NCBI GenBank assembly: GCA_001247695.2
Contig: LGRX02033407.1
Location: 20,813-84,812 of the forward strand
DNA: 64,000 bases
Source of the DNA: Cymbomonas tetramitiformis
Taxonomy: Eukaryota; Chlorophyta; Pyramimonadophyceae; Pyramimonadales; Pyramimonadaceae
Direction: 5' to 3'
This document shows, in pieces, positions 5,770 through 64,000 of this stretch; within the stretch, counting starts at the first letter, position 1, and each line of letters starts with the position of its first letter. The notes under the pieces were generated by a model that saw nothing but the letters and a program-made list of their open reading frames with translations, made no database searches and was not told where the DNA came from. The position numbers and the translations under genes are program-made.

Positions 5770-7763
5770 ATGGCTTCTTTCACTTGCTCCACAGTTAACG
5801 TTGCGCGCAATGTTGCCGCTCCCGTTGCCAGTAACAGCCGCCGTGCTGCTGCCCCCAAGGTGATTCCGCAGATCACAGCATCTCCGCAATGTGTGAAGAT
5901 GATCTCCTTTATTTTGTGTCACGGACAGGCTCGCCACCGCTGACTTCAAAGCAACCTTGTCATGCTGAAACCTTTTTGAACATTTAGACACACACACATA
6001 CCTAGGGCTGCAAGATTACCTTTAATTAGAATACGGGAAAACGCCAAGCGGTGGCCAAAGCTGTAGTTGGGGGACTTTTTCTTGAACTCTCAAGTCACGT
6101 TCGTCAGTCTTAATCCGCACACGTAAAGCTTCTCAAAGGTTGAACCGACTCAAAACAATTTGCTTTTCTTGGAGAGGTTGCACCATTAACCAATCGTGCA
6201 GCGCACAACGGCTCTGTCCCGACGTTTATCGTACGACACGAAAAGAAACTCGGGAGGGTTTTCAGACGTATAGCACAGAGGAGTTTTTCGAGTATGGCTG
6301 GACAATGCAGTGCTACTGTTAACTCCAAAATGTGCTTGTCCTCTTCATTGAAAGTTTCACGCAAGATTCCTTCGTTTGATTTGCCTTTACTGTAAGAGCA
6401 GTAATGAAACCTCTGCAACCACAGAAACATCACCGTTCAATTTTGCCTTTTTTGGTGCTGTATTTGTCGAAATATTGCTGTTCGCGCTCCGATGCACAGA
6501 TATCTCGCGTGCAATGAGCCGCAGAAATTCGTGATATATCACGGATGCTCTGGGGGCTTTCTGTCACCATAGCTGACCGTTGCTAAAGGTTCCCACCTAT
6601 AACTTTAAGCAAAGTAAAGTGAGTGACGGATTTGACTTGTTGGTGACTGCCAGGCTTCTACGGCTCCTGTCGCCTTCAGCAAGGCGCAGTCTGTGTCCAT
6701 GGGCAAATCCTCAAGCGTGTCTCGCGATGTCCGCATGCGTGATGGTGAATACGGTGCCAGCGGAACGTCGTTCTACACCACCACCGAGAAGCAGGACTCG
6801 TATGACGACCTCGACACCGTGCTGAACGAGAAGTGCAGCGACCCTATGGTCCGTGCCGTCGTGGTGGAGATGCTTGAAGCCTGCGCCGACATCACCGATG
6901 CGCTCCGCTCCGCTTTGGTGACGGTGGAGGGCTCCTCCAACACCTTTGGCGACGCTCAGCTTTCTGTGGACGTGATCGCCGATGAGATCATGTGGAAGGC
7001 CTGCATGGAATCTAAGGTGGTGGCTTGGGGTGCCTCCGAGGAGGAGCCCGAGGTTAAGAAGTGCAACCCGAATGGCGAGTACACCGTATGCTGGGATCCT
7101 CTTGATGGCTCCTCCATCGTTGACAACAACTGGGCCGTCGGAACTATGATTGGCATTTGGGGCTCCAAGTCCGGCACTGGTGAGGACGGCCTCATCGGCG
7201 CCACTGGCCGCGATCAGGTGACCTCCCTCATCGCTCTTTACGGCCCTCGCACCACCGTTCTCGTCGGCCTCGACGATGGTGTGTACGAGTTCTCCTACGG
7301 CTGCACGCCCGAAGGCTGCGTGCTCCCCGACGGAAGCTTCGCCCCTTGGATCTGCTCCCGCTCCCGTATCACCATCGACGAGGACTGCAAGATCTTCTCT
7401 CCCGCCAACATGCGTGCTGCCCAGGAAGTCGAAGGCTACAAACACCTCCTTGACCACTACATGGAGAAGAGGTACACACTCCGTTACTCTGGCGGCCTTG
7501 TGCCCGACGTATACCAGCAGTTCACCAAGAACCAGGGCGTGTTCTCCAACCCCACTTCCACAACCTCCCCTGCTAAGTTGCGTCTTGCCTTCGAGGCTTC
7601 TCCTTTCGGCCTCCTCGTAGAAATGGCGGGGGGGAAAACCTCAGACGGTGTCACCGGCGGCTCCGTGCTCGATGTGCCTATCACTGCCGTTGACCAACGG
7701 ACAGCACTCTGCATTGGGTCTGCAAATGAGGTTGACCGCTTCAACGAGTTCATCTGCCCGTAA
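5770..7763 (+). CDS. SBPase: Sedoheptulose-1,7-bisphosphatase, plastid-targeted
   Basis: Calvin-cycle phosphatase that converts sedoheptulose-1,7-bisphosphate to sedoheptulose-7-phosphate in the plastid stroma. Exon 1 (5770-5859) encodes 30 residues starting MASFTCSTVNVARN, rich in Ser/Ala/Arg and free of acidic residues, a transit peptide without a secretory signal. A 794-bp GT-AG intron (5860-6653) joins in phase 0 to exon 2 (6654-7763). The metal/substrate motif WDPLDGSSIVDNNW, YGPRTT, KRYTLRYSGGLVPDVYQ and the late PAKLRLAFEASPFGLL block identify the SBPase branch of the FBPase fold. Codons are strongly C-ending, as in highly expressed genes. The CGGTxC regulatory cysteine pair of land-plant SBPase is replaced by a VEGSSNTFGD stretch. 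The TAA at 7761 overlaps a good donor (CCC/GTAAGT), so a short further exon is possible but none is convincing. Confidence 0.93.
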
Positions 7764-8364
7764 GTTAGTTTTGTAAAATTTATTAGATATAGGAGAGCTT
7801 AGCTTATTCATAGTGTTTCAGATATAGATGTATTACATATTGTAAACAAATATTCAACATAAGGCAGTTCCTGCAGCTGCATAACCCACCACTGCACTGT
7901 AGATGCAAAGATTTGTCTGGTGTTGAAAGCATGAAATCTTTAAGCTGAGTATGTCTTAGAATGGAAAATATCATGTGTAGATATCATTTGCAGGAAGGAA
8001 GAATTGTTAAACGTGCAGGAAATGTGTTTGGCTTGCAATTACTGCTGAACATTAGAAAACCCCATAAACCTGCCTAACACTCAAACCAGAGATTCCAACA
8101 TTATTGTATTTTTTGGGAGAACACCTTCGTCCGGCCAGCCAGTAGTTTGCATGCCTGACCACCTCTGTGACTCAGATGCAATGCAATTGTTCCGGACTAA
8201 TTGCGTAGTCACAGAGGCTAGTGGCAAGCCGTGCAGAAAATTTGCCTTCACTGTGTGTGTGTTTGTGTGTGAAGTGGTACCCTACTAGTGGCGAGGATTT
8301 TGTATGTTGGTGGTTTTTATATTGGAACCTGGGGGCTTTTTCACCTGACTGGTGATCAACAGCC
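7764..8364. other. SBPase 3' flank, no further gene
   Basis: AT-rich sequence after the SBPase stop. TGTAAA/TGTAAAC words occur at about 7772 and 7840 and could serve as green-algal type polyadenylation signals. A short TG microsatellite lies near 8253-8270. No coding potential is recognised. Confidence 0.45.
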
Positions 8365-8715
8365 ACGTTGTGGGGTACTGGCATCTCATTGTTAACGGGG
8401 ACGGCCACTGGGGAGTTTGGATGATGAGATGTAGCTGTCCCTGTGTTACCTTTCTGGCGGGTACTCCCTCTTTGGGAGCGTGTCGTGGATTCGTCTGACG
8501 CTCTCTCCCTCTCCGTGCCCAGTGCTTAATGGTCATTACACGTGTCGGGGGACGCGTGTTCTTTGACCCCGATGTGAGGTACTGGCGCGTCGCTGTGAAC
8601 GGGGACGGAGCCGCCGGGTGGAAGTGGGGTTTGGGAAGCGGTTGTCCCTGTGGTGCCATTCTGGCGGGCACTGCCTCTTGGAGAGCTCGGTGGATTCGTC
8701 TGCCCTTGCTGCAAG
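8365..8715 (+). repeat. Diverged tandem duplication, period about 207 bp
   Basis: Two related blocks (about 8369-8526 and 8575-8712) share the order GGTACTGGC, AACGGGGACGG, GTCCCTGTG, TTCTGGCGGG and GTGGATTCGTCTG. The open frames here are by-products of the duplication. No function is evident. Confidence 0.65.
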
Positions 8716-9199
8716 GAGAGGCAGAGGGTGGCGAAGTTCACGTTCTGTGTTTTTCCTTGAATTTTGCGGGGAGCACTTAGGTGCCTGCATGTCTTAATTT
8801 TTTTACCATGGGGTGTCCATGCCGTGTGGTGTGACTGCATTCATGGTAATCATGGACCGGCGGGTCCCATCCATCGACCGTGAGCCATTGGCGGGTATGC
8901 CAGCAGGGTCTACCGTAATCGGTTATCCATAGACCAACAACTGTTGGCGACGATCGGTCACATCGTATCATCGTTCCATGCTGCTTTGCATCTGGGTTGG
9001 GAATATGTATGAGTTGGCGGTATCTTGTGACGGTCCCGCCCTGCTCCTGATTTTCTTCTCACATCCACTGGGATGATGATGGGCTGGCTTTTGTTGGCTG
9101 ATCTCATGCCATTCGGTGCGTGTGTGTGTGTGTGTGTGTGAAGTGGGTATATCGTGTGAAGGAGAAGATAAACTATAAAACCGCTATTGCTAATATCAT

Positions 9200-9356
9200 G
9201 TTACATTGTATTTACTTTATTATTAAGTTTAGGAGGCACTGTACCCAGTACGAGTACGCATACTTCATGGTAAAATACAGCAGGTGCCACCACCGACATG
9301 GCTCGAACCCCCTACCTCCCGGAAACCTGGCGGCAGTACCACTACGCCACGTTTAG
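9200..9356 (-). repeat. tRNA-derived SINE-like sequence
   Basis: Read on the minus strand, TGGCGTAGTGGT at 9349-9338 fits the tRNA A box, and GGTTCGAGCC at 9309-9300 fits the B box, about 40 bp apart as in tRNA genes. The flanks cannot form a proper acceptor stem and the T stem is poor, so this is not a functional tRNA gene. An unrelated AT-rich body follows (9290-9200). That layout is typical of a SINE, but only one copy is visible, so the call is tentative. Confidence 0.4.
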
Positions 9357-9459
9357 ATTATGGTGTCGTGGAGCCAAATTACAAGATATAATATTTCATT
9401 TGTTTACAAAGGTGCAGATTTATAAACACGTGAATATTTTTATATCGGCTTGTGTCACT

Positions 9460-9575
9460 GTGTCGCATGGCCGCTGCGCGGCGTAAGATAAGTCAATATA
9501 ATAATTGGCCTCGCGGTCGCGACCGCTTCGCGGCCATTATCATTAAATGCATGGTCGCTTCGCGACCATGAAACA
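9460..9575. repeat. Cluster of short GC-rich palindromes in AT-rich DNA
   Basis: Three hairpins occur in about 110 bp: GCCGCTGCGCGGC near 9470, TCGCGGTCGCGACCGC with following TTCGCGGCC at 9513-9534, and CATGGTCGC-TTC-GCGACCATG at 9549-9571. The surrounding DNA is AT-rich. Such clusters are common in algal organelle genomes, so a nuclear insertion of organelle DNA is possible but unproven. Confidence 0.5.
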
Positions 9576-10750
9576 AGTTTTTTGCAGTTGCTAATATGAT
9601 AAGCGGCACGGACCCCGTTCTTGCGTTTTTGGTAACAGGTTCCGCATTTTTTTATTTAAATTTTTTGAAATGATGAAATCACCAGAAATTTTATTGTCTA
9701 CACATGAACCCCAAAAAATGTTTTGGGTTAGAATCCAATGAATATCTTCGTTGCAAGGCATTATCACTGCAGTTGTGCAAAGTTTTGGGCGAGATCGGAC
9801 ACTGAGAACATAACAACCCATTCACACACATCCTTTAATCCCTGGTGCATGTACAAAATGCAGCTGATTTTCTGTTTATAGCATTTGATTGTCTGGATAC
9901 TGGATGTCAAAGAAATTCGAGTACAGTGCACTATCGGTACTCAGAAACATCCTCCTCAGCAAGAAAAACATACATGCTACCTGCTGAAAAGGATAAATTT
10001 GCAATTATAAAGTTTACCATATCAGAGCTCTGAATTTCAGAAGACTGACTGACGCCCGACTCAACCATCGCAGACAATACGTTGTGACAGGCACTTATCT
10101 GGAGTTGCTCAAACGGAGGAACCTATGTGTTATCTGCGTTCATGGAAAGAAAGCATGATGGTGACTCAGAATCAGGTAAGGTTGAAAGAGGAACCCCGGC
10201 CATCAGACGAGCGCAGACACATACATCTCATTTGAATCCGACGATTGCACACCCAATTCCATCAGGATATTTCCGCTATGTTTAGCGCAAACCAACAAGG
10301 GACTCTTTTGGTTATAAATGCTGAACTTGCATGTTCATTTAGTAAAATGTTTTCAGTAGCAGCATTTCCGAAAACTTCTGTATCTACATCTGTCAACACT
10401 TGCCCATAATTTTGCAGCCAATGCTACCGTTCCACAGCGATGCCGCATCTTCGTGCATGAAAATATCGGTGCAATCGCACACAATTACCACCGCAAACAA
10501 TTGTTTGCTTAGGCAATCCTTGCTGCAACAGAACCTTGTCTTCGCTCTTGCCCGTTTCCCTCGCCTACTCCAACATTGGTTGTGCATGCTGTTCGGCTCC
10601 CTCTAATTGGCGGATTCTGATTGCAAGGTGCCGATGCCTCGGACCCAACTCAAAAATCGACCATTCTTGACTTGCCCACACCATCTGCAAGGGACTGGCT
10701 ATCCGTATGCTGCAGCGCAAGTATGCACTTCGAAGTATCAAAGAGAGCGC
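9576..10750. other. Intergenic, no gene recognised
   Basis: Mixed AT-rich sequence downstream of the methyltransferase gene on the minus strand. I see no coding motif or clear repeat. Confidence 0.4.
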
Positions 10751-34583: not shown

Positions 34584-34658
34584 TGTCCCCCCTTACAGTG
34601 GGGGGGTTAAGTTGGGTTTCCCATGACACCACCTCGCCCTGTGGGGATGAGGTGTCAC

Positions 34659-34777
34659 CAAACACGGCACGCAGGAGCAGTTAAGAATCAAGGGGCTATA
34701 CCAGCCTGAACACAGCCTGGCTAATACGGCATCGTCCACCAACACCAAACTAATTGTCCTACAGCTACATTACACTT
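34659..34777. repeat. Direct repeat flanking element D, left copy
   Basis: This 119-bp block (CAAACACGGCACGCAGGAGC through ACAGCTACATTACACTT) abuts the left end of element D and recurs at 38525-38632 directly beyond its right end. The left copy carries an extra 11 bp (AACACAGCCTG). The two otherwise match almost perfectly. Confidence 0.9.
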
Positions 34778-35021
34778 TACCGGAATATCCTAGTTCACTA
34801 GATATCAGAGGGTCCCGAACTGTGTGGATAAACTCTCATAAGATAAATAAACCCTAAGCTAGATATACCCGGAACAGTCTCGCAACGGTCTCGGAAACTA
34901 GCCTACCTGTGACACAGCGTGTGTCACAGCACGAACCTATAGATCAGTCAGCAGTCCAGTGTTGGTCCTAGGGGTCTGCATAGGGGCCTGCCTGTCAGGG
35001 CTGCCTATACAGATTCCAGCA
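34778..35021 (-). repeat. 3' LTR of element D
   Basis: This 244-bp terminal repeat contains the palindrome TGTGACACA-CGC-TGTGTCACA at about 34930-34910. It matches the LTR at 38264-38519 and the LTRs of B. Confidence 0.9.
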
Positions 35022-35348
35022 CACCACCCCAGCACTGTGGGTGGTGACTGGCTAGGAGAGTCAGAATGTAAATCTCTAGGGCAGAAGCCAGGGTGACAAG
35101 TCCTAACTGCTAATCCAACTGTGCTATTCTGATACACAAATTGAAATCCCTCTAACCAGCACAAGAGAAACCATACAGGCAATGCAAGTCCTGCTAAACT
35201 ACTGAAAAGCTCTGTGCCAGTAAGTCAGGTTGAAGAATTCAAAGGTGTCAAAGCAAAAGCATAAACCAAATTGAAGACCGTGTTGAGGTCAAAGTAGATC
35301 TCAGCACACCACCAGACAGGTGGTGTACTGCCGAAACCAGTAACATAA

Positions 35349-38111
35349 CTACTCGGGGTCAAAGGGCAGAGTAGCACCGTCACCACAATGATCACCGTAG
35401 CAGCCCGCAGTAGCACGGCGGAGCAACACGGGGCGGCCAAAGTGTAAGGTGCTGGTCATTGGAAAATCATTCGCCAGAGAATTTGACGGAGTCGGTGTTG
35501 CTGATTCGTCGATCACGGGAGGCTGCACCGCACCGGGGTGCTGCCAAGTGCTGCCCGAAGGCGGGGCCTCGTCACCTGAAGACGATGCCGGCGACAGCGG
35601 AGGACCGTCCTCAAATAACATGGCAGGCGGCGGCGGCCCGGGATGCCATGGCACCGGAGCCATATAGAGGCCCTGCCTCCTCTGTACCCGCCGGTGGAGA
35701 CGAGGCGGAATAGCACACGGCACCGTAACAAGCGGCGCCTCTTCTCCCCTGCACAGCACAGGCTGCGGCGCAGCCCGACCCGATACCTGCACAGGGTCGA
35801 TGTCATTGGCCACCGTATAGGTGGCAGCTCCCACTCCCATGACAGAAATCAAGAGAATGAAGGAAAGAAGGAAGGGCATCCCCCACAAGCCCGCGTGGGC
35901 GGGGAAGCCCCACGGAGGCTTTCCGCAGCCGTGGCTGCGGGGGGCACCGTCATGCCAATCTCCCAGAGCACCACCAGAGTGAGGTGCTCGGGCTGCGGGC
36001 GTTGACGAATGATTTGCCGAAATTGTCGAAGTCCGCGGCTTCACGACGAAGCTGCCGTCGGCGAGGTCCTCGTAATCGTCCGTGTCGTAACCCGTGAGAT
36101 CAACCTGTCCGATGGCGGCGTGGTTCACGGTCTGAACGAACCCAGCGAACTCACCGTCCGCGTCCGCTGTGGCGGTCACCCGCGCCGATTGAAGTGGCGC
36201 GGGCTTCACATCCTTTCCCTGCGAGACAGGCATAGCAGGGGCCGGCACGGCGGATACCGATGCCGCCGCACCACCTGCCGGAACCTGCTCCTCCGGTGTG
36301 GCCACCGCTGCGGCGGGTCCGCACACCAGAGCCGAAGCCCCCTGCCCGATGCCGGCAGGAGGCGGGAAAGATGCGTGGGTGTAATGCACCTGCGGGTTGG
36401 CCGCGGAGTGAACCTCCGCGGCAAGATCGTCGAGCCGGCGGAGAATGTCATCTCCCTCGGAAGCCGGCTGCTGCTCCACGGTGAAGCCGTAGGCGGACAC
36501 GTCGATGCCGCCCACCGCTCCCGCACAAAGCACCGCGGGCGGCCCGTACGCGGCTGCCGCACGTGCGAAGGACTCCGCCCCGTCATCCGCCGCCTGCTGG
36601 AACAATGCACACATGGCGAGCGCGTGCACCCCCTCTGCGTCCTCCTCGTCGATGGGAACGCAAAATGCCGCGGCAGAGGTGGGCGGGTGTTGGCGCCCGC
36701 CCAACGGGCAGTCGCGGTAAAAGTGATACGCCTCACCTTTTCCCGCCTTCTTGCACCTACCGCAGAACGGCTTCGCTCGTTGATCGTCGCGGTCGAATCC
36801 CACCGGTGGGGCCTTGTGGGTCCCCACACGGAATCCTCGCGGCTGCTGCCCCCGCTGCTGCTGCTGCCGCTGCTGCACCCGCTCCCGTTGTTGCCGCACA
36901 ACCGGAGCGGCCTCACCGTGTTGCCGCTGCACGAGCTCCTTCAGCTCCGTGATCTTCTGAAGAAGGGCGTCGTACTCGCTGCTGGAAAGGTGCGCGGAGA
37001 CGCCGTCCGCGCCAGAAGCCACCTTCCCCCCGCCCGTCTGTGCCCAAGCCTGGTAAATCTCCACAACCATGGAACGGAGCGAAACCAGTGACACCTGAGT
37101 CAAGTCAGCGGCCATGGGATAGCGGACCTTCACCGCAGCGTAGAAGGTCGGGTCGAGTCGGGTGTAGAGGCTTAATTTTCTGGTAGCCTCCGTCGGTGTC
37201 CAGTCAGACGCCCTGTTATCCCGCACCAAACGCTGTTCCTTAGCCAAAATCGGCTGCGGGTCAACGTTTGCGGGATAACGTAACGCGGCGTGCTCCTCCT
37301 GCTGCGACTCCCGTAGTGCCACCGGCACACAGCCCTTGATAACGTCGATGAGAGCTCGCCGTCCATCTCGGTCAGTCGAAGAATCCGTACCAGTCAGCCA
37401 GACGAACGCGTTGCTGTGCTTCTCAATCACCAGGGCAAGAACGTCGTAGAGAAGCCCATTCACCCTGTTGACCACGGGTGCCAGAGGGTCGTCGAGGTCA
37501 AAGGCACGTAGCTCCAGACCGGCCGACTGAAACTCCGTACGCAGCTGCACCACCAGGTCGGACAGAAGGCCAGCGTCGTCCGTACCGCGAAAATGATGTT
37601 TCTTGTCGCCAAGAATATCCTCGCGGATACTCTTGGCCCAAGCTCGATGCAGTCGCGACTTGTAGATCTCGTCGACGAGCTTGGACTGCTCCTGCAGGTA
37701 ACGTCTGACGGCCACGTCCTCGTCGACGTTCGATGCAGGGTTGGGGGTAGGAACAGAAGGCGTAGCCCCCGTTGGTGTGTTCCGTACCCCGTCGATCAAC
37801 CTCAGAGAGGCGTCGATGTCGCTGTCCCTCGTGAGGGACTTCTTGGATCTCGTTGTGATTCCCATCTCTAGATAAGCCTGAGGGGAGGCGGTACGCTGCA
37901 GCACGTTTGGGTAGGGTCGCGGAGAAAACGCGACGTCACAGATACGGAGCGAGCGGTCGAGCCATGCGAGCGAGGGGCAAAGGAAGATGTTGTCGAGGTC
38001 AAAGGTGCCAAGGTCACCAGCCCAAAAATCGGTAGCCAGCGGGATCAAGACTAGCAGAAAACCGTGAATGAACATTGCGTCGACGAAACCCGATCCAAGC
38101 CGGCACCCCAT
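35349..38111 (-). CDS. Gag-like protein of element D, with predicted membrane segments
   Basis: A 920-residue frame. The N-terminus is hydrophobic (FLLVLIPLATDFWAG). An internal Met opens MGITTRSKKSLTRDSDID, where the Gag region may begin. The helical core includes LVVQLRTEFQSAGLEL, YTRLDPTFYAAVKVRYP and SLRSMVVEIYQAW. A Gln/Arg-rich linker leads to a zinc knuckle, CGRCKKAGKGEAYHFYRDC (C-x2-C-x9-H-x4-C). After an acidic stretch (DLTGYDTDDYEDLADG) comes a clear transmembrane segment, GMPFLLSFILLISVMGVGAA, then about 150 Pro-rich residues. The same order is kept in B and, where visible, in A and C. I recognise no pol domain. Gag-like is inferred from the knuckle, the helical core and the LTR setting. 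Confidence 0.8.
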   Translation of the reverse strand: MGCRLGSGFVDAMFIHGFLLVLIPLATDFWAGDLGTFDLDNIFLCPSLAWLDRSLRICDVAFSPRPYPNVLQRTASPQAYLEMGITTRSKKSLTRDSDIDASLRLIDGVRNTPTGATPSVPTPNPASNVDEDVAVRRYLQEQSKLVDEIYKSRLHRAWAKSIREDILGDKKHHFRGTDDAGLLSDLVVQLRTEFQSAGLELRAFDLDDPLAPVVNRVNGLLYDVLALVIEKHSNAFVWLTGTDSSTDRDGRRALIDVIKGCVPVALRESQQEEHAALRYPANVDPQPILAKEQRLVRDNRASDWTPTEATRKLSLYTRLDPTFYAAVKVRYPMAADLTQVSLVSLRSMVVEIYQAWAQTGGGKVASGADGVSAHLSSSEYDALLQKITELKELVQRQHGEAAPVVRQQRERVQQRQQQQRGQQPRGFRVGTHKAPPVGFDRDDQRAKPFCGRCKKAGKGEAYHFYRDCPLGGRQHPPTSAAAFCVPIDEEDAEGVHALAMCALFQQAADDGAESFARAAAAYGPPAVLCAGAVGGIDVSAYGFTVEQQPASEGDDILRRLDDLAAEVHSAANPQVHYTHASFPPPAGIGQGASALVCGPAAAVATPEEQVPAGGAAASVSAVPAPAMPVSQGKDVKPAPLQSARVTATADADGEFAGFVQTVNHAAIGQVDLTGYDTDDYEDLADGSFVVKPRTSTISANHSSTPAARAPHSGGALGDWHDGAPRSHGCGKPPWGFPAHAGLWGMPFLLSFILLISVMGVGAATYTVANDIDPVQVSGRAAPQPVLCRGEEAPLVTVPCAIPPRLHRRVQRRQGLYMAPVPWHPGPPPPAMLFEDGPPLSPASSSGDEAPPSGSTWQHPGAVQPPVIDESATPTPSNSLANDFPMTSTLHFGRPVLLRRATAGCYGDHCGDGATLPFDPE

Positions 38112-38200
38112 AGCTGCGGCTCAAAGGCGCTCACCGCAAGCTGCTCATCTCAAAATTCTCGCTGATGCCCAAACGCGCAAACGCGCACCACCTCTCCGAG

Positions 38201-38263: not shown

Positions 38264-38519
38264 TACCGGAATATCCTAGTTCACTAGATATCAGAGGGTC
38301 CCGAACTGTGTGGATAAACTCTCATAAGATAAATAAACCCTAAGCTAGATATACCCGGAACGGTCTCGCAACGGTCTCGGAAACTAGCCTACCTGTGACA
38401 CAGCGTGTGTCACAGCACGAACCTATAGATCAGTCAGCAGTCCAGTGTTGGTCCTAGGGGTCTGTCATAGGGGCCTGCACCGGGACTCCCAGTCAGGGCT
38501 GCCTATACAGATTCCAGCA
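38264..38519 (-). repeat. 5' LTR of element D
   Basis: This 256-bp terminal repeat starts TGCTGGAATC at 38519 and ends TTCCGGTA at 38264. The leader follows directly with GGTCGTGGCCCCATCC, identical to the start of the leader of B. Confidence 0.9.
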
Positions 38520-38524
38520 TCCAG

Positions 38525-38632
38525 CAAACACGGCACGCAGGAGCAGTTAAGAATCAAGGGGCTATACCAGCCTGGCTAATACGGCATCGTCCACCAACAC
38601 CAAACTAATTGTCCTACAGCTACATTACACTT
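38525..38632. repeat. Direct repeat flanking element D, right copy
   Basis: Partner of 34659-34777. Both copies start CAAACACGGCACGCAGG and end CTACATTACACTT, and each abuts the element on its own side. That is the geometry of an unusually long target-site duplication. Confidence 0.9.
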
Positions 38633-38633
38633 T

Positions 38634-39950
38634 GCTCAGTCAGTTTTGAAAGATGCTAGATATATCATATAGATATAACTATATGCTGAACCCTAAATAC
38701 AGGGCTTCGGATATCAGAACGGTCGGAATTGATAAGTTCTCAAAGGTGAAAATACTCCCGAGATATAACTCAGGTTTTAGGTTTCGGCTTTCGGGTGACG
38801 GTCACCCAGACTACTTTCGGATGAGGCATGTGACACAATTCAGGGTCGCGGTGCCAAATCCAGCACACCACCTAGTGCGGGAACCGGAACTAGGTGGCCG
38901 AAACAGGGACAAATGCCTCTTAGGCAGAAAAGTTAGTGCTAGTGAAAGGCACTGTGCTCATACTGGCCAGCCCCCCCTCCGAACAGGCAGTGCAGAACGC
39001 TACGGCTACTACCGTACTTTCTACTGCGCGCAATTCTGATACACTGAAAACTTAAAGCCGAAAACCCTAGAAGACAGTTGACCATCTTGGGCCATCCCAC
39101 TCTAGCAGCATCTCAAACTGAAGGTGGGTAGATACACCCTGTGACTCTAACTAACCATTGTTGATACAGAGCCCGGGTAAGCCGGTACCATTGTAAGTCG
39201 AAGCACAGGCGGGGTTCCCATAGTCCGATGATTCAAGCGTAGAAGAAAATGAGGAAAAGCCGATGTAGTTGAAGTCGATCGAAGAAGTCCAGGGTGTCAG
39301 CGAGATGAGAATGTAGCCCTCCTCGTACAGTAATCACTCACCTTTAAGAAAACCCGGCGATAAGAAACCAGCCAGCTTTTTCTTTTGGGGGGGGTACCGA
39401 AGTTGTCGAGAATAGCTGGCTGGTTTTTTTGAGCTATGGAATACTCGAAAATAAGAAATAGGTCTTTGGCGCCAGTGCAGAAAATTTTGAAAATGTCGCC
39501 TTTTTTAGTGTTTATCATTGGACTTTTAAAAATTGTTGGCTGATTGAAAGAAAATACTTGCTAATTCTTACCGATTCCATAGGACAACGGCGGGGGGGGT
39601 ACGCAAGTTGGTGGAATTAGCTGGCTGACCCCAAATCTCCGGTTTTCTTAAAGGTGAGTGATTACTGTATACAGGTGATGCCGCACCAGAATGCAGCCGT
39701 ACACCACCAACCCCGCCGCCCGTGATGAGCTGCGGCGTGGTGGAGAAATCATGCGTGGGAGAAAATGAGCCAGATCCCAAACCTCGATCGTCGATGCCGC
39801 TGCCAGAAGTACCCCAGGACACTCATACGTAGCACCACCGACCGGTGGAGCTGCCGCGGCACCCACGCCGACACCACCAAGCGCGCGGCTGCGGTGAGCG
39901 GGACCGCGGTGGCACTCTGTCAAGATGAACAGGGTGCGCACCAGGAGAGA
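38634..39950 (-). mobile_element. Remnant E of a related LTR element
   Basis: An LTR start, TGCTGGATTT, is at 38865 reading minus. It is preceded by the hairpin CCACCTAGT-N12-ACTAGGTGG at 38897-38868. Further upstream is a coding tail: after removal of the MITE at 39328-39667 and one TA, minus frame RHHL continues as YEEGYILISLTPW and ends ESSDYGNP...GLCINNG with a TAG at 39151. Upstream frames (39941-39668) are Gly/Ala-rich. The 5' part is missing or unrecognisable. The lower LTR boundary is not determined. Confidence 0.55.
39328..39667. mobile_element. Mariner-type MITE, copy 1
   Basis: This 340-bp element has perfect 26-bp terminal inverted repeats (CAGTAATCACTCACCTTTAA at the left end) and is flanked by TA on both sides. 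CAGT ends with a TA duplication are the mark of Tc1/mariner elements. There is no transposase frame. It interrupts the coding tail of remnant E. Confidence 0.9.
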
Positions 39951-49859: not shown

Positions 49860-50048
49860 TGCTGGATGTGACACACCGTGTGTCACTTCCTATATCTGTA
49901 CTAGTACTCAGCACAGTACGGGTGTCACAGGTTTAGGGTTTCCGGCTTAAGGCGAGGTTTCAATATGTTTATTTACACTTAGAGAAATACCGAAAATGAA
50001 AGCATTCTGAGCATAGCCAGATATATATCCGAGACTATATATCTAACA
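49860..50048 (+). repeat. 5' LTR of element A
   Basis: This 189-bp repeat carries the palindrome TGTGACACA-CCG-TGTGTCACT eight bases from its start, of the same kind as in the otherwise different LTRs of B and D. Confidence 0.88.
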
Positions 50049-50649: not shown

Positions 50650-52516
50650 CCTCCGCTTGGTGGGGCGTTGGGGGCCCCATTTGATGGTTGCGACATGAGG
50701 ACTCGCGGTTGAGGCACGCGTCGTTACGGAGTAATTGTGTTTATCGCTGCAGCATACCCTACGTGATTTTTCGATGTCCACGGGATTCTCGTTTGACTGG
50801 GACCTGATCAATCTTTGTCACGGACTTCTTGCGCAACGTGTAGACCGACTTCCGCATTTCTACAATTTGGGACCTCGCAGTTACGGACGTTACGGCTGCT
50901 TTTGCCATCACTATTTCCGCGAGCTTCCTCCTCTCCGCGCCATCGCCACCTTACCCCGACGCTCCCACCTCTAGGAATCTTATCATGAGTTTTTCATCGC
51001 AAGCTACGCCTGCCATGGGGGCTCACAACAGAATCCGGCTAGACACGATTTTTCCCCGAGACGTGGGAACTGGCTACAAGCCGACGCCTGCATCTCCGGC
51101 AGCGGCTTTGACGGCTTCTGAGCGGACACGATCTGTGGTCGTTCAAAATTCATCTTGGGACGTCAATTTGTATGATCAAGAGAGTTTCCCGAGACGCTCT
51201 TGGGACCAAGGAGGCGACATTCAAGGGCGACGAATCTGACCGCAACGCGCTATGGACCTCTTTGGCGTTTGGCCACATCTTTGCAGTCGGCATTCGAGCA
51301 GAAGGACACCGCCAACGAAGCCCTCTTCGACTTGGCGGATGCCACCAAGGAGGTGAACAACGTGTACAACGCCATTCTTTTCACGACGTCGACTTCTTTG
51401 ACGAAGCCCCATTCAGCCGCGAGACGTTGGGTGGACGCTTCTGGACGTGCTTCCCCATGGGATGTGAAGCGAGCCTTGCTGGAGATCACGAAGCGACTAC
51501 TCCCTCGAATTCTTCGACCCCTTGGTAACTACGAGGAGTTGTGCGCCATCTACTTCGCCTCCAACCTCGACCCCGATCCTTTAATTCAGGATTTTGACGC
51601 CTGCTTGACCGCCATCCGCAACGCAGCTTCTGGACCTCTCGACGACATGGTGGCCAAGAAGCAACTGCTGGCGTCCCTCGATACGGGATTCTACGACAAG
51701 GTGATTACACCCCTTCGACTCGACGTGGATTTGGCCAAGGTCGACCTCGAGGACATTTACGCCCACATCCTTGAGATTTGGGAGAGCGAACATGGTGTTG
51801 GCCGCGTGAAGCAGCTTAAGCCGACACTCCCGACTGCTCCGACTATGCTGTACTCTGGTGGCGTGGACGTGCAGACCCTCATCCGTGAGTTCGAGAAGCA
51901 ATTGGAGTCCGCCACCTCGACTCTCGTGGTCCTCAAGGACTCTTTCGCGAAGCACGACGAGCCTCTCTCTGGATTTGCCGACTCTCACCGCCACCGCCAG
52001 CACCCTAACGGTAAGCGTGGAGTCGCCTTTCCGTCCTCACGTTGGCGGGATGAGCGGAACATGAGAGACGACTGAAAGTTCCATGGCCGCGACAATCGAG
52101 TGGGGGGCTATGGACGTCAGAAGAATTACCGCTTCGCCGTGAAACCGCTCAATGGCGACGGGAATTGGCAGCAGAGCCACTACAAAAAGAACTCCGCCAT
52201 GATCAACAACATCTCGTTCCACGTGGCCTCCACCGCCTTCATCCCAGAGTGCGCACGTTGTCCGCCTGGACACTTCCACGACACCGCGAATTGCCCCACG
52301 GACGACATGGCATACATGCGCGGAGTGCGACTTGATCGCCGCTGACGAGAACGACGAGCTTGTCTCCGCGTTCCAGACCGCCTTCGACGCCCAGGACGAC
52401 GCCACCTTCGCACAACTTTGTGGACGGCATGAACAACCCGTTGTTCGTCACGACGAGGAGCCCTTCACGTTCGCGGACGACATCAACATCGGCCTTCGGG
52501 CACAGTACGCGGGCTT

Positions 52517-52767
52517 TGCTGAAATCTGTATAGGCAGCCCTGACAGGGAGTCCCGGTCAGGCACCTATGACAGACTCCTAGGCCAACACTGGACTGCTGA
52601 CTGATCTATAGGTTCGTGCTGTGACACACGCTGTGTCACAGGTAGGCTAGACTCCGAAACCGTCCGAGACCGTTCCGGGTATATCTAGCTTAGGGTTTAT
52701 TTATCTTATGAGTTTATCCACACAGTTCGGGAGTTTCTGATATCTAGTGAACTAGGATATTCCAGTA
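52517..52767 (+). repeat. 5' LTR of element B
   Basis: 251 bp with the palindrome TGTGACACA-CGC-TGTGTCACA at about 52620-52640. The leader GGTCGTGGCCCCATCC follows directly. Confidence 0.95.
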
Positions 52768-55492: not shown

Positions 55493-55811
55493 CTTCTTGT
55501 TCACTCTGGATGCACACCAACATGGTGGTGTGCGGAACTCCGGTGACTTCAACAATTTTTATAGTTTATACTTTTGCTTTTGACATCTACAAGTTATATT
55601 CTGGCTTGCTAGCTCGGTGCTTTTCAGTTGTTTAGCGGGTGCACAATGCCCGTAGGTTTCTGCACCTGTGCTAGCTAGAGGGTTTCCAATTTGTGTTTCA
55701 GAATTGCACAGTTGGATTAGCAGTTAGGTCTGTCAACCTGGCTCCTGCCCTGACTTATCTTACGTTATCTGACTCTCCTAGACAGTCACCACCCACAGTG
55801 CTGGGGTGGTG

Positions 55812-56062
55812 TGCTGAAATCTATATAGGCAGCCCTGACTGGGAGTCCCGGTCAGGCCCCTATGACAGACTCCTAGGCCAACACTGGACTGCTGACTGAT
55901 CTATAGGTTCGTGCTGTGACACACGCTGTGTCACATGTAGGCTAGACTCCGAAACCGTCCGAGACCGTTCCGGGTATATCTAGCTTAGGGTTTATCTATC
56001 TTATGAGTTTATCCACACAGTTCGGGAGTTTCTGATATCTAGTGAACTAGGATATTCCAGTA
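55812..56062 (+). repeat. 3' LTR of element B
   Basis: 251 bp; differs from the 5' LTR at about five positions with no indel. Preceded immediately by the GGGTGGTG hairpin arm. Confidence 0.95.
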
Positions 56063-56534
56063 GGCTTATTGCCCCCCCAGCCCGCCCTCCTTGCGACACG
56101 CGTGCATGAGGCGCGGACTGCCCTCCGCGAGCTGAAGCAGGTGGCCGGTGGTGCTGCATCAGCACCACAACATTTTCCCATGGTGCATTTCGGCTCGGCC
56201 ACGCCCGGCGCCGTGATCGACCAGACCGTCGTGGAGCCTAAGCCGCAAGTGGCGATCGACACCGACGAGGACGCGGAGATTCACCCGAAGCAGTTCATCG
56301 ACAACGAACCCCCCTTCGGACAATCTTTCATGGACAACATGTCTGTGAAATTAGGCTTCTTCGAGCCCGAGCCAGAGGTCTCAGCTAATTCCTTTACCCC
56401 CTGCCTCCGTACATTTCTTCCACGCATGATTCGGCTAGCGTGGCTGACTCGGAGTCTAACGACGAGGAATTGTGTGAGGACATGCCGCCACCCGCTCCAC
56501 GGGTTGGTGGTGTACCGACACCGACGATGGGAAC

Positions 56535-57585
56535 TGCTGGAAATGACAAGGTGACTGTCATTATGGTCACCTGTCATATCCGTAATCAGACTCGGAGTCC
56601 AGCCGTGACAAACAGTTCACATTTTTTTTATGACTCGTGGACTTATGGACTCGTGGTTATCTGGGCATTTGTTCACCATGTGGGTGGTGCTTTGGCGCTG
56701 TTGTTTCATGAATCTACTTCGCCCTTCATCATTTGGTGGGCTCGAGACTATGCGGAGAGGTGGCATTTCTCCGTAGGCTGTATCGCTGCGTTTGGGTGGT
56801 GCTTGTTCAGAACATTCCTTTTTCGTTGGCGTGTAGCATCGTTGGCAAGAGTGGTATATCTTCGGTCGACGTTCACACCATTTGTTACCAGCTAGCTCTC
56901 TATTCGACCACACGACCTCGTTGACATCTTGGAGGTTCCTGTATTTCACACCAACAGATGACGATACATCTTTCCGGTCTCTGGCATGTACGACCACTAC
57001 TTTGACGACTCTCCTATGGCACGGCGGGCAAGCGTTGATTTCGTTGGTTTCCTCTTTCTTTTGTTCTTTGCTACATTCTTGAATCACAGTTGTTCAAAGG
57101 CTTTCACAGTCGGTGGTGCTTGGCCAACGTCACATGCCAGCTCCACAATGAGAATCCTTTGTTTTTTCAACGGATACAATAGTAGATGAATGCTTACGAT
57201 CTTGGGTTCCGTATTCTAGCATGCCTTAGCCACGAGCTCCGACTCGTGCATCTTGCATCTCACTTAACTGACTCGCGAAATGACTTATCCCTAACACATT
57301 TAGCTAGCCAGGGTGGTGTTTGTCACTCGTGTCTGTCCCACCTCATCTGAGGTGGTGTGCTGGAAATGACAAGGTGACTGTCATTATGGTCACCTGTCAT
57401 ATCCGTAATCAGACTCGGAGTCCAGCCGTGACAAACAGTTCACATGCTATTTAGCTCTCAAGTCCGTATGTCTCTCCCCTTCTAATAACATAATATCCGA
57501 GTATGTAGTCTACCACTGCTGACCGACCTGTATTGACCCTCTGTCCGCTTGGAATATTATTACCCTCACGGTATAATATCCAGCA
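56535..57585 (+). mobile_element. Small non-coding LTR element T (TRIM-like), nested inside element A
   Basis: A 1051-bp element with ends TGCTGGAAAT and ATATCCAGCA and a perfect 5-bp target duplication GGAAC (56530-56534 and 57586-57590). The right LTR is 57358-57585 (228 bp). The left copy matches it for only the first 87 bp (56535-56621), so the left LTR is truncated or was deleted internally. The hairpin CCACCTCA-TC-TGAGGTGG (57338-57355) precedes the right LTR. No coding region is recognised. Removing it restores the A reading frame across the membrane segment. Confidence 0.85.
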
Positions 57586-58136
57586 GGAACTTTCCTCACA
57601 GCAGCGGCACTGCCGGCTCTCTTGGTGTGTGTGAGCATGTCCTTGATGCACACCGTCACCGCCTCTGCACTTTGTGATGTGGAGATTGCTCCAGGGTCGG
57701 TGGTGTACGGACGGCACTCTGTCTGTCAGAATGGCACAGTGGAATTCTTCAATGACACCGCCTTTTTGGACTCTGGACCCGCTGACTTTTACAACAACTT
57801 CACTCTGGACTCTGGTTTTCTGGACTCTGACTATTTTGGCATCTACAATGTGGACTTTGAGATTGAGACCGACGACAACAACCTCAGTGAACTCTACCTT
57901 GTAGACCACTTTCAAAGTGGCTAGAGTTGCTTTGTAACTACTAGTAGCCCTGCTAGATCAGCTTCAAGGCCAAGATGCCTTCTGTGTGCAGTGCTAGCTA
58001 GACTTTGGGACCGCCCTGGATAAGAGCACAGGCCCCCGCTAGGAATTGTTTCCACCGCTTGAGATGGTGTGTTTATTTCCAAACAATTGTACCCTGCTCC
58101 ACCCTAACTTTTCCTCCGTAATAGTACAGGGTGGTG

Positions 58137-58327
58137 TGTTGGATGTGACACACCGTGTGTCACTTCCTATATCTGTACTAGTACTCAGTACAATATACGG
58201 GTGTCACAACTTTAGGGTTTCCGGCTTAAGCCGAGGTTTCGATATGTTTATTTACACTTAGAGAAATACCGAAAGTGAAAGCATTCTGAGCATAGCCACA
58301 TATATATCCGAGACTATATATCTAACA
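58137..58327 (+). repeat. 3' LTR of element A
   Basis: 191 bp, partner of 49860-50048, with about nine substitutions and a 2-bp indel. Confidence 0.88.
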
Positions 58328-59833: not shown

Positions 59834-60475
59834 TCATTTACCTGTTCTATCATACTCAGTAATCCGAGGATGCTTCTTGCGAAGTGGTCCATTTATCTCA
59901 ACCACAGGGGCATCGTGCAAGTCACCACAATCGACCGGTTCAAACCCATGCGCCCGAATAAGCTCTGAAAGGACAGCCCGGGCGCGCGATGTGCCACAGA
60001 TTTCAGTCGGCTGGAGTTTATAGTTGGCAACACTGGTCCACATGATGGACTTGTAAGCTGTGGCCCACTCTGCGGTCGGATCACCCAGGTACTCTGCATG
60101 GTAAGTGAGCGCTGACTTGTGTGGCGAGGGTGGTGGCCAGTGGGCGTAGCCCCAGGGGTTGCTCGGATCAATAAGGATCTTGCCTTTGCCCATTAGTGCA
60201 GCTCGATGGTTGTCAAGAAACTCACACACAGGATCTGACCGTCCTGGGTTGGCAAGGCAGATATACAGCACTGTGCAGGCACCCGCCACCTCCGCATAGG
60301 AGCCGCCCCTCGGCGTCGGTCCTGCCAGTTGCTTGGCACACTCGCGGGCTTTGCCGCCGCCGTCGCGAGAGCCGAGGAAAACAGGGATTCCGGCTTTAGA
60401 GAGGACTCCTGCTATGGCAAGCCCCATGCGACCACACCCGATGAAGCCGACGGGTTCCGGCGGGAGGGTCGCCAT
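59834..60475 (-). CDS. NADP-dependent oxidoreductase, F420-oxidoreductase/STEAP-domain type
   Basis: A Rossmann-fold protein of the NADP oxidoreductase coenzyme-F420-dependent family, which also forms the reductase domain of STEAP metalloreductases. The chosen start is ATG at 60475 (MATLPPEPVGFIGCGRMG), because the GxGxxG motif normally lies near the N-terminus; the frame is open to 60607. Visible blocks are GFIGCGRMGLAIA, VFLGSRD (NADP-type Arg after beta-2), GKGKILIDPSNPW, TSVANYKLQP and GFEPVDCGDLHDA, the last matching the family's C-terminal helix. About 213 residues, usual for the single domain. The TGA overlaps an AACAG/GTAAAT donor, so the protein may continue in an exon not found. Substrate unknown. 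No neighbour suggests a pathway. Confidence 0.75.
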   Translation of the reverse strand: MATLPPEPVGFIGCGRMGLAIAGVLSKAGIPVFLGSRDGGGKARECAKQLAGPTPRGGSYAEVAGACTVLYICLANPGRSDPVCEFLDNHRAALMGKGKILIDPSNPWGYAHWPPPSPHKSALTYHAEYLGDPTAEWATAYKSIMWTSVANYKLQPTEICGTSRARAVLSELIRAHGFEPVDCGDLHDAPVVEINGPLRKKHPRITEYDRTGK

Positions 60476-60607
60476 TGCAGCTTCTTCTTCCGTCCTCGCG
60501 GGCTGTGAGGGATGAACCACGCTGAGGCGAAATGTATTGATATCCAACGTCCAAAGAGTAGCTGATCCTTGTACCAGGCGCAAGAGGTTTAATGCTGGGC
60601 AAAGCAC

Positions 60608-62879
60608 ATCAGCACAGCGAAGTCTTATTTGCGGGGTAACGGAAGACTCTCTTTGTTATGTTCGAGGCGCAAGGACCATCTGCTGGTGTCTGAGAAAGGG
60701 GGACATGCGCAAAGGTAGCTAATATGTAGCAAGCTCCAGTGTTGGTGTAGCCTAATTTATATTGGGGAGAAATGGTGCCGGGTAGCGGCAGTGACGCAGG
60801 AATCAAACTGATAGTCTGTAGCCACTTGCAATGTTTCAATTTCTCTCGATCTCAAGCTGTCGGGCAGAGCCACAACTGTCGTGTGAACTGATGCAAGCCA
60901 ACCTCTTCGTTCCGAGACCACTCGCGGCAGGTTTACCTGCTCAAAAGCGATAGTTCGAAGTTCCAACTTCCATAGTATACGTTCCGCTGGTCGATGTTAA
61001 ATTGCTCAGATGAAGATTTCCTCGCGGCTAAGGATATAGAGTGGGGTACGGCACCCCGGAAAACTGGTCTCGGAATTGGATTTGGACCATTGGATCGACC
61101 GCTACGAGCGTTGACCGTTCCGTTGACTTTTACTATTTAGACCTAATTATTCCAGCAAATTGATGATTCCTGCGCAGGCATCTGTGGAAGAAGTCTTCAC
61201 TCACTGAGAGCATATATGAGCTAGGGATATATATCCCTTACATATATATGCTCCCAGTGCGTATGGAGGTTGAGTTTAGCGCGATTCGGGTGTGATCCCG
61301 TACTTCCGGCTCAAGGAATAGTACGGGTTCACACATTGAGTCATGCAATTTTGCTAAGAAAGTGGGTGCGACGTACACAAGTTGCGCAGTATCAATTTCT
61401 TGAAGGTGCTGCAACTTAACGTACGTTCGTATGCCTTGCCATCTATGCGGATGGTTGCCGATACCGGCTTGTGCCCGCTTTGAGCACAAGCCGGGATCGT
61501 CGCGTTCACGCACGTAGACACCGTGCGGGCTCATCTTATGATAAATTTTACCTTAAAACAGACCCCAAGGAACAATAAACCGAGGGCAATCAAGGGCAAT
61601 CAAACGCCTAAGACCGATGAAAAATTTTCAGGGAGGAGCCTCAAAACCGGAAAACCCCTCTTGGAAAATCGCGTTCAGATCTTCACGTAGCGAACCTCAG
61701 AGTTTCCAGGCACGCACAAACCTCATGTTCGCATGTTCAGGAACATGTTCTAATATACAAAAATGTTCAAGATAGAATAACATATCCGTGATATATCCTT
61801 GAAAAAGGTGCTGAACAGCACCGTTCAAGCAAGTTTGCAGAGCGCTTCTGGAGCTGCGCAAGGTTTTCAGGCCTAAATCTGAGTTTCGAGATCGCGAATT
61901 TCATCGCGTTCGATCGGAAAACCCGACCAACGGAATGTATACATAGAGTGGAACGCTTGCAACCGTGAGGTTTTTTTACGCTAAAAATCTTTGTCGTTTG
62001 TGCCACGTCGCGGAACGACGCGACGTGCCACACGACAGCGCAGCGCTCGTGTGATGTGACTAGTGTCACAGGGCGTGACACACAACAGCGTAGCGAGTAC
62101 AGTACTGTAGGTGTCAAACACGAATAAGGCAATAACTGCGAACTGAAACTGGCGTGGTGGGGATTTCATCAGATACCTTTCAGAATGGCTTTCACCCCCA
62201 TGGCCATGCGCTTTTTGGTTTTTAAATGTTTTATATGGATTTGGATAGAGTCGACCTGATTGGGCTAAGAACCCATCGATAAATCAGGTCTACTAGCGCC
62301 CTGTCCAGCGTGTAAAAATGGTTGTTATCCTGAAGACTTGAGTAGTCAACAACCCGACAGACACGCGACACGACACCCGAGTGCTAGACAAAGCAGCGCG
62401 TGAGCTGGGCACCCGTAATGCACGTCTTGCGCGACGAAATAGGCATACTTTGCCACACCACGACCAACGAGGCAAGTCTTGAATTACCGCCACTGCTTGC
62501 AGGGGTTTTGCAGACTCTTGAGGCTACGCATGTTGTTTGCTCTTCTTGTTTTTTTTTGTTGGTGCAGTAGACACTTGATCGTTGGGTTTGCACGTATACT
62601 CCGTGCTTCCTTTCAGTGTCCAACCATCCGTATGCCTTATTGACGCCACCTTTGCTATGATGAGACGGCACTTTTGGATTTTTGATCTACTTAAGTAGCT
62701 TATCTCATTTCATTGTTGACGTGTGCCTTATGTGGTCCACGTGTCTGAATTGTGCTGTTACCACTGTTGAACGCGTTGCACAGCACCATAGGCCTGGTTC
62801 AAGACGAGTCAATGCAAAACCCGTCGCACCGATCCTTCGAACCCTGCTCGAAGTCCAACATCAATAGGCCACGTTGCAA
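60608..62879. other. Intergenic, no gene recognised; large hairpin
   Basis: AT-rich with short frames. A long imperfect hairpin lies at 61206-61253 (GAGCATATATG ... CATATATATGCTC, inner GGGATATATATCCC). GTGTCAC/GTGACAC words cluster at 62050-62090. No gene or element end is identified. Confidence 0.45.
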
Positions 62880-64000
62880 GATCCGTGACAGGACTTAACC
62901 CCAACTGTGAGATATATTATACTGTAATATATCGGGTGGTCACTGAATAGTTTTCATACACGGTGTAAACTGATTATAAGAGATAAACGAATATAAGCGT
63001 ATCTGTGACCTAGGTTTCTGCCACCAAGTACTGTACGAGTACTGGTACAGCTAAACGGAGTCATGCACATAATGACCTACGGTGCACTGAATCCAGCACA
63101 CCACCCTGTAACTGTACGGAGTGCTGTTCAGGTGGCAGAGAGCGGAGCACAGACAAATCAAACTGTTCCGAAACAACAAACAGCCAGGAGCTGGAAACTG
63201 CTAGAGGGAGGCCTGTGCTTTAGCCAGGGCGGTCCCTTTCTAAAACTGCTGCCAGGATACTGCTTTCAAGCTAAGTTCCTACAGCTCAATTTTGCAGATA
63301 CTCAGCCACTTTCAAAGTGGTCCACAAAGTTGCAGAGTTCACCAGAGTTGAAGAAGTTGTCAATGTCAAAGATGTTCAACCAGAACCAGAGTCCAAAAGT
63401 CATAATCCAGAACCAGAGTCCAGAGACCAGAGTCCAGCACCAGAAACCAGAAGCATAATCCAGAAGCCAAGACCAGAAGCCAGAGCCAGGAGAAGACTCG
63501 CAGAGCAAATTCAGGAATTCCGAAAAGTCAAAATCTGATCCCAAGCCTGCCGAGACCATAGAAGGAAAAGGAATGCCGAAAGGAAGAGTGTACGGCAAGG
63601 CAGACGGACTGTTGGCAGTCACCCCAGTGGGATGTACTGCTGCGGTGAATTCAGGGGCTCGATCGAGCACCACCGAACCCTGAACCGCTGTGACACATGC
63701 TAGGCACATGAGGGCGGGCAGGGCAAGGGATGCAAAAGAGAAAACTCTCGGCAATGTTGCCACACCGACACGTGACCGTGTAGCCGGTGGGGCCGAGGGA
63801 ATCCCGTCTCCGAAATAAGAAAAACCGTCGGAGTCGTCGTCATCGTCGATCACGGAAAGCTCTCCCGGGTGAATCGACTCGTGAACCGAGTCAATCGAGC
63901 ACAATTTAAGGGAGGGGTTAGAGCATGCCGGCATTACCTGGTCCATAAAAGTGACACGGAGAGGCTCCTCGAAAGGAGACTCGACAGAAGCCGGGTCCGA
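62880..64000 (-). mobile_element. LTR element C, related to A, runs off the right edge
   Basis: Reading minus, a Gag-like C-terminal frame (64000-63302) is followed by an untranslated tail, a hairpin (CAGGTGG ... CCACCCTG, 63135-63101) and an LTR start TGCTGGATTC at 63098. The lower LTR boundary near 62880 is an estimate because the second LTR lies outside the window. LTR sequence differs from A, B, D and T. Confidence 0.7.
63302..64000 (-). CDS. Gag-like protein of element C, C-terminal part
   Basis: The frame is open to the window edge, so the N-terminal Gag core and any zinc knuckle lie outside. Visible are EEPLRVTFMDQV, similar to A (QSFMDNM), an acidic run VIDDDDDSDGFSYFGDG, and a transmembrane segment FASLALPALMCLACVTAVQG that aligns with the one in A (TAAALPALLVCVSM). 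The C-terminus LCNFVDHFESG matches the A ending LVDHFQSG. Between them is a Trp/Phe-rich stretch (GFWCWTLVSGLWFW) encoded by degenerate CTCTGGTTCTGG repeats; the A tail has similar DNA read in another frame, so part of this may be a frameshifted tail. Confidence 0.7.
   Translation of the reverse strand, partial: SDPASVESPFEEPLRVTFMDQVMPACSNPSLKLCSIDSVHESIHPGELSVIDDDDDSDGFSYFGDGIPSAPPATRSRVGVATLPRVFSFASLALPALMCLACVTAVQGSVVLDRAPEFTAAVHPTGVTANSPSALPYTLPFGIPFPSMVSAGLGSDFDFSEFLNLLCESSPGSGFWSWLLDYASGFWCWTLVSGLWFWIMTFGLWFWLNIFDIDNFFNSGELCNFVDHFESG

Follow-up and report, generated by a model that had tools for sequence, protein, structure and literature searches.

LTR elements of the window

The window, the whole 64-kb stretch of DNA that we analyzed from the marine green alga Cymbomonas tetramitiformis, a prasinophyte, holds LTR elements and host-type genes: a fructose-1,6-bisphosphatase, a frame with an RWP-RK domain, and a frame resembling F420/NAD-binding oxidoreductases (Table 1). 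Four elements of the window, B, D, A, and T, have two direct LTRs around an interior, as do two elements elsewhere in the genome, L062 and L068. Elements E and C of the window, L067 elsewhere, and 40 sampled genome sites are known from their junction motif alone. B and T are nested within A. A 5-bp target duplication, GGCTT, flanks B; L062 has GATAT, and the flanks of A agree at four of five bases. No target-site duplication was seen in the flanks of D, T, or L068. A segment of about 110 to 120 bp beginning at the 3′ end of E's LTR recurs (90%) directly after D's 3′ LTR, and the two repeats resemble a very long duplication around D's insertion.

Table 1. Positions of LTRs, hairpins, open frames, and other features in the 64-kb window
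Feature	Position	Strand	Remarks
RWP-RK domain frame	2296-3063		Host type
Fructose-1,6-bisphosphatase	6636-7763		Host type
F420/NAD-binding oxidoreductase-like frame	59834-60655		Host type
Repeat beginning at 3′ end of E's LTR, around D	34656-34778 / 38522-38633		
D 3′ LTR	34778..35021	-	94.5% to 38264-38519
D junction hairpin	35022..35046	-	8-bp perfect stem (CACCACCC/GGGTGGTG); sequence identical to B's
D second internal hairpin	35307..35325	-	CACCACC-TGTCT-GGTGGTG, then TGCTG (resembles LTR start); ~285 nt upstream of 3′ LTR
D Gag-like open frame	35349..38120	-	923 aa; Cys/His knuckle by eye; hydrophobic segment in C-terminal half; no Pfam match
D 5′ LTR	38264..38519	-	LTR pair with 34778..35021
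E junction hairpin	38868..38897	-	CCACCTAGT/ACTAGGTGG; 9-bp perfect stem; single LTR in window
A 5′ LTR	49860..50048	+	LTR pair with 58137..58327
A Gag-like open frame	51176..52075	+	Distant relative of D's, 27% identity
B target duplication	52512-52516 and 56063-56067		GGCTT
B 5′ LTR	52517..52767	+	No hairpin upstream
B second internal hairpin	55512..55533	+	GCACACCA-ACATGG-TGGTGTGC; place homologous to D's; pairing by eye
B junction hairpin	55787..55811	+	CACCACCC-loop-GGGTGGTG; 8-bp perfect stem, flush with 3′ LTR
B 3′ LTR	55812..56062	+	TGCTG...CCAGTA; 98% to 5′ copy
T 5′ LTR	56535..56630	+	LTR pair with 57358..57453
T junction hairpin	57338..57355	+	CCACCTCA/TGAGGTGG; 8-bp stem (formal 2-nt loop; 7 bp when folded)
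T 3′ LTR	57358..57453	+	97% to 56535-56630
A junction hairpin	58099..58134	+	CCACCCT/AGGGTGG; 7-bp perfect stem; TG, then LTR
A 3′ LTR	58137..58327	+	TGTTGG...AACA; 94% to 49860-50048
C junction hairpin	63101..63135	-	CCACC/GGTGG 5-bp core with bulged extension; single LTR in window

L068 carries a frame 27% identical to the Gag-like frame of A and 23% to that of D. By eye, a hydrophobic segment following G-C-G-[KR]-P-P is common to D (35349-36668, minus strand) and L068 (4876-6957, plus strand); these are distant hairpin families whose Gag-like frame has a membrane-like tail and in which no polymerase was found. The D frame has 112 relatives, 109 of them labeled Cymbomonas tetramitiformis. 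Reverse transcriptase, RNase H, and integrase were not found in B, D, A, and L068, where the scanned frames, a part of all their frames, had no Pfam match at all; neither E nor C is complete. When Gag relatives were sought up to a length of ~1,600 aa, 63 matches were obtained, with a reverse transcriptase-type domain in P0096 only. This gene model combines a Gag relative (55-250) with RT_RNaseH (445-549), and P0083 combines a piece of Gag with RVT_1; they are 2 of the 112 relatives of D's Gag-like frame and are possibly chimeric, so that a link of this Gag to a Ty3-type RT-RNase H is no more than a possibility. In IMG/VR, none of four pattern matches was confirmed as a Gag relative by a search that may omit near records. 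A further 39 stretches from a pattern scan were set aside as chance matches, since none had an upstream second copy of any 14-mer from the 100 nt that follow it.

Element T spans 56535-57453, ~0.9 kb with LTRs of ~96 bp, and so falls within the size of TRIMs (less than 1 kb with LTRs). Large Gag-only, nonautonomous LTR elements are known, and B and D are alike in that only a Gag-like frame was found in them. The members of the lineage read here are Gag-only or TRIM-like. Sequence just after the 5′ LTR starts with GGT in B (from 52768), A (from 50049), and L062 (GGTCGTGGCCCC, GGTTACAG, and GGTTATGGACCC, respectively), and we take the L062 sequence to resemble a copia-type primer site for the anticodon loop of the initiator tRNA. 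Short hairpins were seen by eye just after the 5′ LTR of B/D and of A.

A hairpin at the boundary between interior and 3′ LTR

An earlier note on this DNA had described hairpins at six sites, each ending just before an LTR, and we confirmed all six in coordinates and strand. The stem ends 0 nt from the LTR in B and D and 2 nt (TG) from it in A, T, E, and C. The LTR start is TGYTG. This is where the 5′ LTR of B, D, A, and T begins, with unrelated flank and no hairpin before it. Because these 5′ copies start at TGYTG after unrelated flank, GGTGGTG is internal sequence at the place of the polypurine tract, and the boundary between interior and 3′ LTR in these four elements is GGTGGTG followed by TGYTG. 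The junctions of E and C, whose second LTR is not in the window, are presumably the same boundary, as placed by the common motif.

Among the 216 GGTGG words of both window strands, perfect stems of at least 7 bp that include GGTGG were confined to five of the six junctions (C being the exception) and a single internal copy in D, which was read on both strands. Under a first-order Markov null, the figure for such stems was 2 of 418. Rfam had no matches in the window at gathering thresholds.

The internal copy in D has a counterpart in B (Table 1). Between these two hairpins the 3′ arm is conserved, and by eye the 5′ arm differs yet is complementary in another register. Scored singly, neither was significant. 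In the clustering described below, L083 grouped with D's internal hairpin.

Recurrence of the stem and fit of its arms across families

A long-read assembly of Cymbomonas tetramitiformis has been reported at 914.3 Mb, with LTR elements making up 15.3% (PMC10675990). We counted the junction motif GGTGGTGTGYTGG in an 851.7-Mb assembly, in which the window is contig C23322, 20813-84812, and found 10,897 matches (5,476 + 5,421) versus 50 for the reversed pattern; like all our genome-wide repeat counts, this is a lower bound in which abundant families dominate. With the inverted arm added (CCACCN{2,30}GGTGGTGTGYTGG), there were 7,181 matches versus 2 for the reversed pattern. Among 100 inverted-arm matches listed, 5 were a second count of one site, from which we estimate roughly 6,800 sites. 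A direct GGTGG arm was taken as the control (GGTGGN{2,30}GGTGGTGTGYTGG) and gave 93 matches; a CACCC arm was dropped because one of the paired arms of family L069 includes CACCC. The earlier note had named absence of the 5′ arm from most copies as the outcome that would speak against it, and the number of inverted-arm matches relative to that of junction motifs shows the reverse.

The motif was absent from 210 kb of contig C1, which was left out of the family counts, and from L061. Contig C1 (L040 to L060; 418 kb) has a GC content of 33%, versus 49 to 58% for all but one of eight further 10-kb stretches (the exception, L061, is at 35%), and is perhaps a giant virus or an assembly contaminant.

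We then compared families. Forty junction motifs were taken as the first 40 listed genome places, in contig order and not at random. L062 and L068, whose LTR pairs were found by self-comparison, and L067, in which no pair was found, came from eight 10-kb stretches picked by contig number, and all three have stems. Clustering the window sites, the two internal hairpins, and these samples at 72% similarity gave 19 groups, of which we took 17 to be LTR junctions. These 17 families contain the six window sites (in five clusters), the three sites from the 10-kb samples, and the 40 genome sites. The stem search was confined to stems with their 3′ end 0 to 3 nt from the LTR.

Perfect stems of at least 6 bp were present at 19 of the 40 sites; a further 12 had exactly 5 bp, and 9 had fewer. 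All 12 sites with exactly 5 bp belong to the C and L069 families, both of which also have bulged extensions. For comparison, we held GGTGGTG fixed and shuffled the upstream sequence by dinucleotides. Stems of at least 6 bp occurred in 13 of the 17 families versus 1.19 expected (maximum of 5 in 500 runs). At thresholds of at least 5 bp and at least 8 bp, the numbers were 15 versus 3.6 expected and 7 versus 0.09 expected, and none of 500 simulations gave as many in either case. Since the window families had been selected for their hairpins in the earlier note, we repeated the test without them and found stems of at least 6 bp in 9 of 12 families versus 0.86 expected (0 of 1,000 runs). Of the nine families that entered the set through the 40 motif-picked sites, 6 had such stems versus 0.52 expected (0 of 1,000 runs). 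LTR pairs were seen in B/D, A, T, L062, and L068, which make up 5 of the 17 families and all have stems of 7 to 9 bp. L062 has the same stem type before an LTR that starts with TCATGG.

L071, the family of 5 of the 40 sites, lacks a stem altogether, and the stem is interrupted by a bulge in L069 and by a mismatch in L073. With a looser score that allowed wobble pairs and one interruption, just 6 of the 17 families reached a P value of <0.05 singly (Fisher, 4e-4); with an energy score at a fixed 11-nt split, 9 of the 17 did.

Nearly all LTR elements and retroviruses are taken to carry a polypurine tract as a sequence signal, and programs that find LTRs make use of it. In the last 40 nt of all 17 family representatives, the longest purine run was 3 to 5 nt, shorter than the usual tract of ~8 nt or more. 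On this point the earlier note, which had seen no purine run at the primer site, was right. A different arrangement was found in L064 of the same genome. There, AAGAGGGGAGATC comes after a chromodomain Ty3/Gypsy pol region (domains from Pfam, the chromodomain recognized by eye) and precedes an LTR that starts with TGTCAGG, called by eye from one copy. This junction has an 11-nt purine run and no GGTGG hairpin, so the hairpin is not a feature of all LTR elements in this genome. The L064 element (5800-10000, minus strand) ends beside an LTR remnant of a B-like copy. Thus, the earlier proposal of a hairpin at the polypurine-tract position in every element stands for most sampled families; it does not extend to the stemless L071 or to L064 with its normal tract, and in L069 and L073 the stem is interrupted.

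One explanation for such stems is mutation bias. Template switching within an inverted repeat during reverse transcription would keep the palindrome intact by rewriting one arm to fit the other, with no selection on the hairpin. This could account for a perfect arm match of 6 to 9 bp in 13 of 17 families despite the differences between them. However, it leaves both the location at the boundary and the recurrence of GGTGGTG unexplained, and among 62 GGTGGTG words outside LTR junctions in the window and seven samples, a 6-bp stem was present at 5 and lacking at 57. We therefore regard mutation bias as very unlikely.

Next, we asked whether each 5′ arm fits its own 3′ arm better than those of other families. 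The arm pairs include GGGTGGTG/CACCACCC, AGGGTGG/CCACCCT, TGAGGTGG/CCACCTCA, ACTAGGTGG/CCACCTAGT, TGGAGGTGG/CCACCTCCA, and CAGTGGTG/CACCACTG. Over the last 11 nt in the 17 families, own arms had a mean of -12.8 kcal/mol versus -11.0 kcal/mol for swapped arms, and 1 of 20,000 shuffles was as good, a statistic that, like the other swap statistics, is not tree-corrected. At 10- and 12-nt splits, 0 and 3 of 20,000 shuffles were as good. With one family per arm type (seven types, chosen by us), 3 to 4 of 5,040 permutations were as good, a count that includes the true order. At the three splits, the 12 families outside the window gave 8, 67, and 121 of 20,000. The effect was weak to none in the nine motif-picked families (502, 2,345, and 2,760 of 20,000), and there the test is below its best because a fixed split cuts through stems whose loops are very short, and several of the nine have such stems. 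Thus, the compensatory change put forward in the earlier note holds over the 17 families and over the 12 outside the window but is unclear in the nine motif-picked ones, and beyond the GGTG core it rests largely on the window families together with L062, L067, and L068.

These data also bear on shared ancestry, by which all families would descend from one hairpin-bearing element and the hairpin would have no present function. The related Gag-like frames, the constant core, and the weak swap test in the motif-picked families are consistent with this. Yet the Gag frames have diverged down to 23 to 27% identity, and despite that divergence stems of at least 6 bp are found in 13 of 17 families with changed arm sequences. 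Ancestry as the sole explanation is, in our judgment, improbable.

Several families have a second stem-loop within U3, among the 45 nt that open the LTR (e.g., 58137-58165 and 57358-57400). Own versus swapped arms of this U3 stem-loop gave 10 to 32 of 20,000, but only 4 of the 17 families fold better than shuffled sequences (P < 0.05). Two hairpins may therefore flank the start of the LTR, and these numbers are suggestive only.

As far as the sequences of these families go, then, the hairpin lies at the boundary, spanned by GGTGGTG|TGYTGG, where LTR pairs are seen, GGTG(G) recurs as its 3′ arm in most families, and the 5′ arm, of CACC type, changes from family to family while generally matching the 3′ arm of its own family.

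Possible roles of the hairpin and known systems

The hairpin is real and widespread in one LTR lineage of this alga, at what would be the plus-strand origin, and from this we infer its function. We tentatively suggest, with somewhat less than even confidence, that it is a cis signal of a large LTR-retrotransposon lineage and helps to mark the plus-strand origin by structure instead of by a long purine run. The element RNA would fold at the junction, and the stem would set the RNase H cut and spare the primer, because self-folded RNA is not a substrate of RNase H until it is reannealed to minus-strand DNA. Reverse transcriptase would be supplied in trans by a partner element, which we assume and have not found. 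A weakness of this primer reading is that a paired primer would need unfolding to prime.

An alternative is that Gag, or else the reverse transcriptase of the partner, binds the hairpin as a recognition signal in the element RNA, through which Gag-only and TRIM-like elements would be packaged or copied in trans; its place beside the LTR would then simply be the end of the 3′ noncoding region. That polymerase domains were not found in the scanned frames of hairpin elements agrees with this, and a recognition signal would allow for the second GGTGGTG hairpin ~285 nt upstream in B and D. However, the stem ends 0 to 3 nt from the LTR (the only range searched) and a 13-mer crosses the boundary in the LTR pairs, which points to primer formation, and no long purine run is present that could prime instead. 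We consider a recognition signal unlikely.

The hairpin might also act as DNA. In the single-stranded minus-strand cDNA it could block or time priming, by analogy with duck hepatitis B virus, where a small hairpin in the DNA is said to act in this way at the site of the plus-strand primer. That virus is a pararetrovirus without LTRs, and what the two systems would have in common is structure at the plus-strand primer site. The algal stem would form in the minus strand too, and it sits at the primer site. Two C-to-T changes that would retain G-U pairs in RNA, in L088 versus L069 and in L099 versus E, fit RNA slightly better, although they are just two. An action as DNA seems improbable as well.

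If the plus-strand origin is indeed marked by structure, a more specific form can be imagined. The lineage may have given up the polypurine tract, with a covarying RNA hairpin as the origin and its 3′ arm as the primer. The stem-loop in U3 would possibly take part, so that the LTR start would lie in a short linker between two hairpins, and the reverse transcriptase of an unseen partner would read shape. This version is possible but doubtful.

A lineage with thousands of hairpin-marked copies would offer a test case for the choice of the plus-strand primer by RNase H, with the element that has a normal tract in the same genome as a contrast case. It would also help annotation to find elements missed by purine-based tools. 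We know of no published TRIM or Gag-only member with a hairpin that replaces the purine tract. The details of how RNase H chooses the plus-strand primer have been called largely unknown (PMC3185511).

The earlier note had also known of no described LTR group with such a feature and had treated T residues in the tract as unusual. The second point does not hold: single pyrimidines are reported in two retroviral tracts, for which there is no common consensus (PMC3185511), and a G-to-T change is common in classic copia tracts (PMC2829016). The first is likewise not supported as worded. Sireviruses, and nearly half of the classic Ty1/copia elements examined alongside them, have an inverted repeat around the polypurine tract (PMC2829016), which is also mentioned for Sireviruses in PMC3601003, so that structure at the tract was known, but the algal hairpin is built differently. 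For Sireviruses the inverted repeat is proposed to expose the tract to RNase H or to help primer formation, and for Ty1 the tract alone is said to be insufficient for correct RNase H processing (PMC2829016). A systematic search for tract-containing hairpins has been called warranted (PMC3601003). A hairpin whose own arm is the polypurine tract was not reported in the literature that we searched, most subscription journals lying outside its scope.

As in Sireviruses, a conserved structural signal is positioned exactly at the junction of tract and 3′ LTR. Sireviruses have multiple tract copies upstream of the 3′ LTR; here, one extra GGTGGTG hairpin was found in B and in D. In Sireviruses the loop holds the purine octamer AGGGGGAG and the LTR contains the right arm, whereas in the alga the 3′ arm is itself the tract and has T residues. 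With no purine run of >5 nt and a stem found wholly before the LTR by a search 0 to 3 nt from it, the Sirevirus type of layout was not seen.

The Conserved Hairpin Site of the fungal Copia elements GalEa is likewise a short conserved stem-loop beside an LTR, found across families and thought to serve transposition (PMC5445492). However, it follows the 5′ LTR and replaces the primer binding site, while the hairpin of the alga precedes the 3′ LTR. RNA structure also takes part in primer formation in self-priming Tf1-type chromoviruses (PMC3601003, PMC5445492), but there it forms the minus-strand primer at the 5′ end, whereas the algal site is at the plus-strand primer position. Element T resembles TRIMs in being an LTR element of less than 1 kb (PMC6934838). 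Thus, set against these published descriptions, in which inverted repeats at the tract are already known, the hairpin-as-tract of this alga is a variant on the described theme of structure at the polypurine tract.
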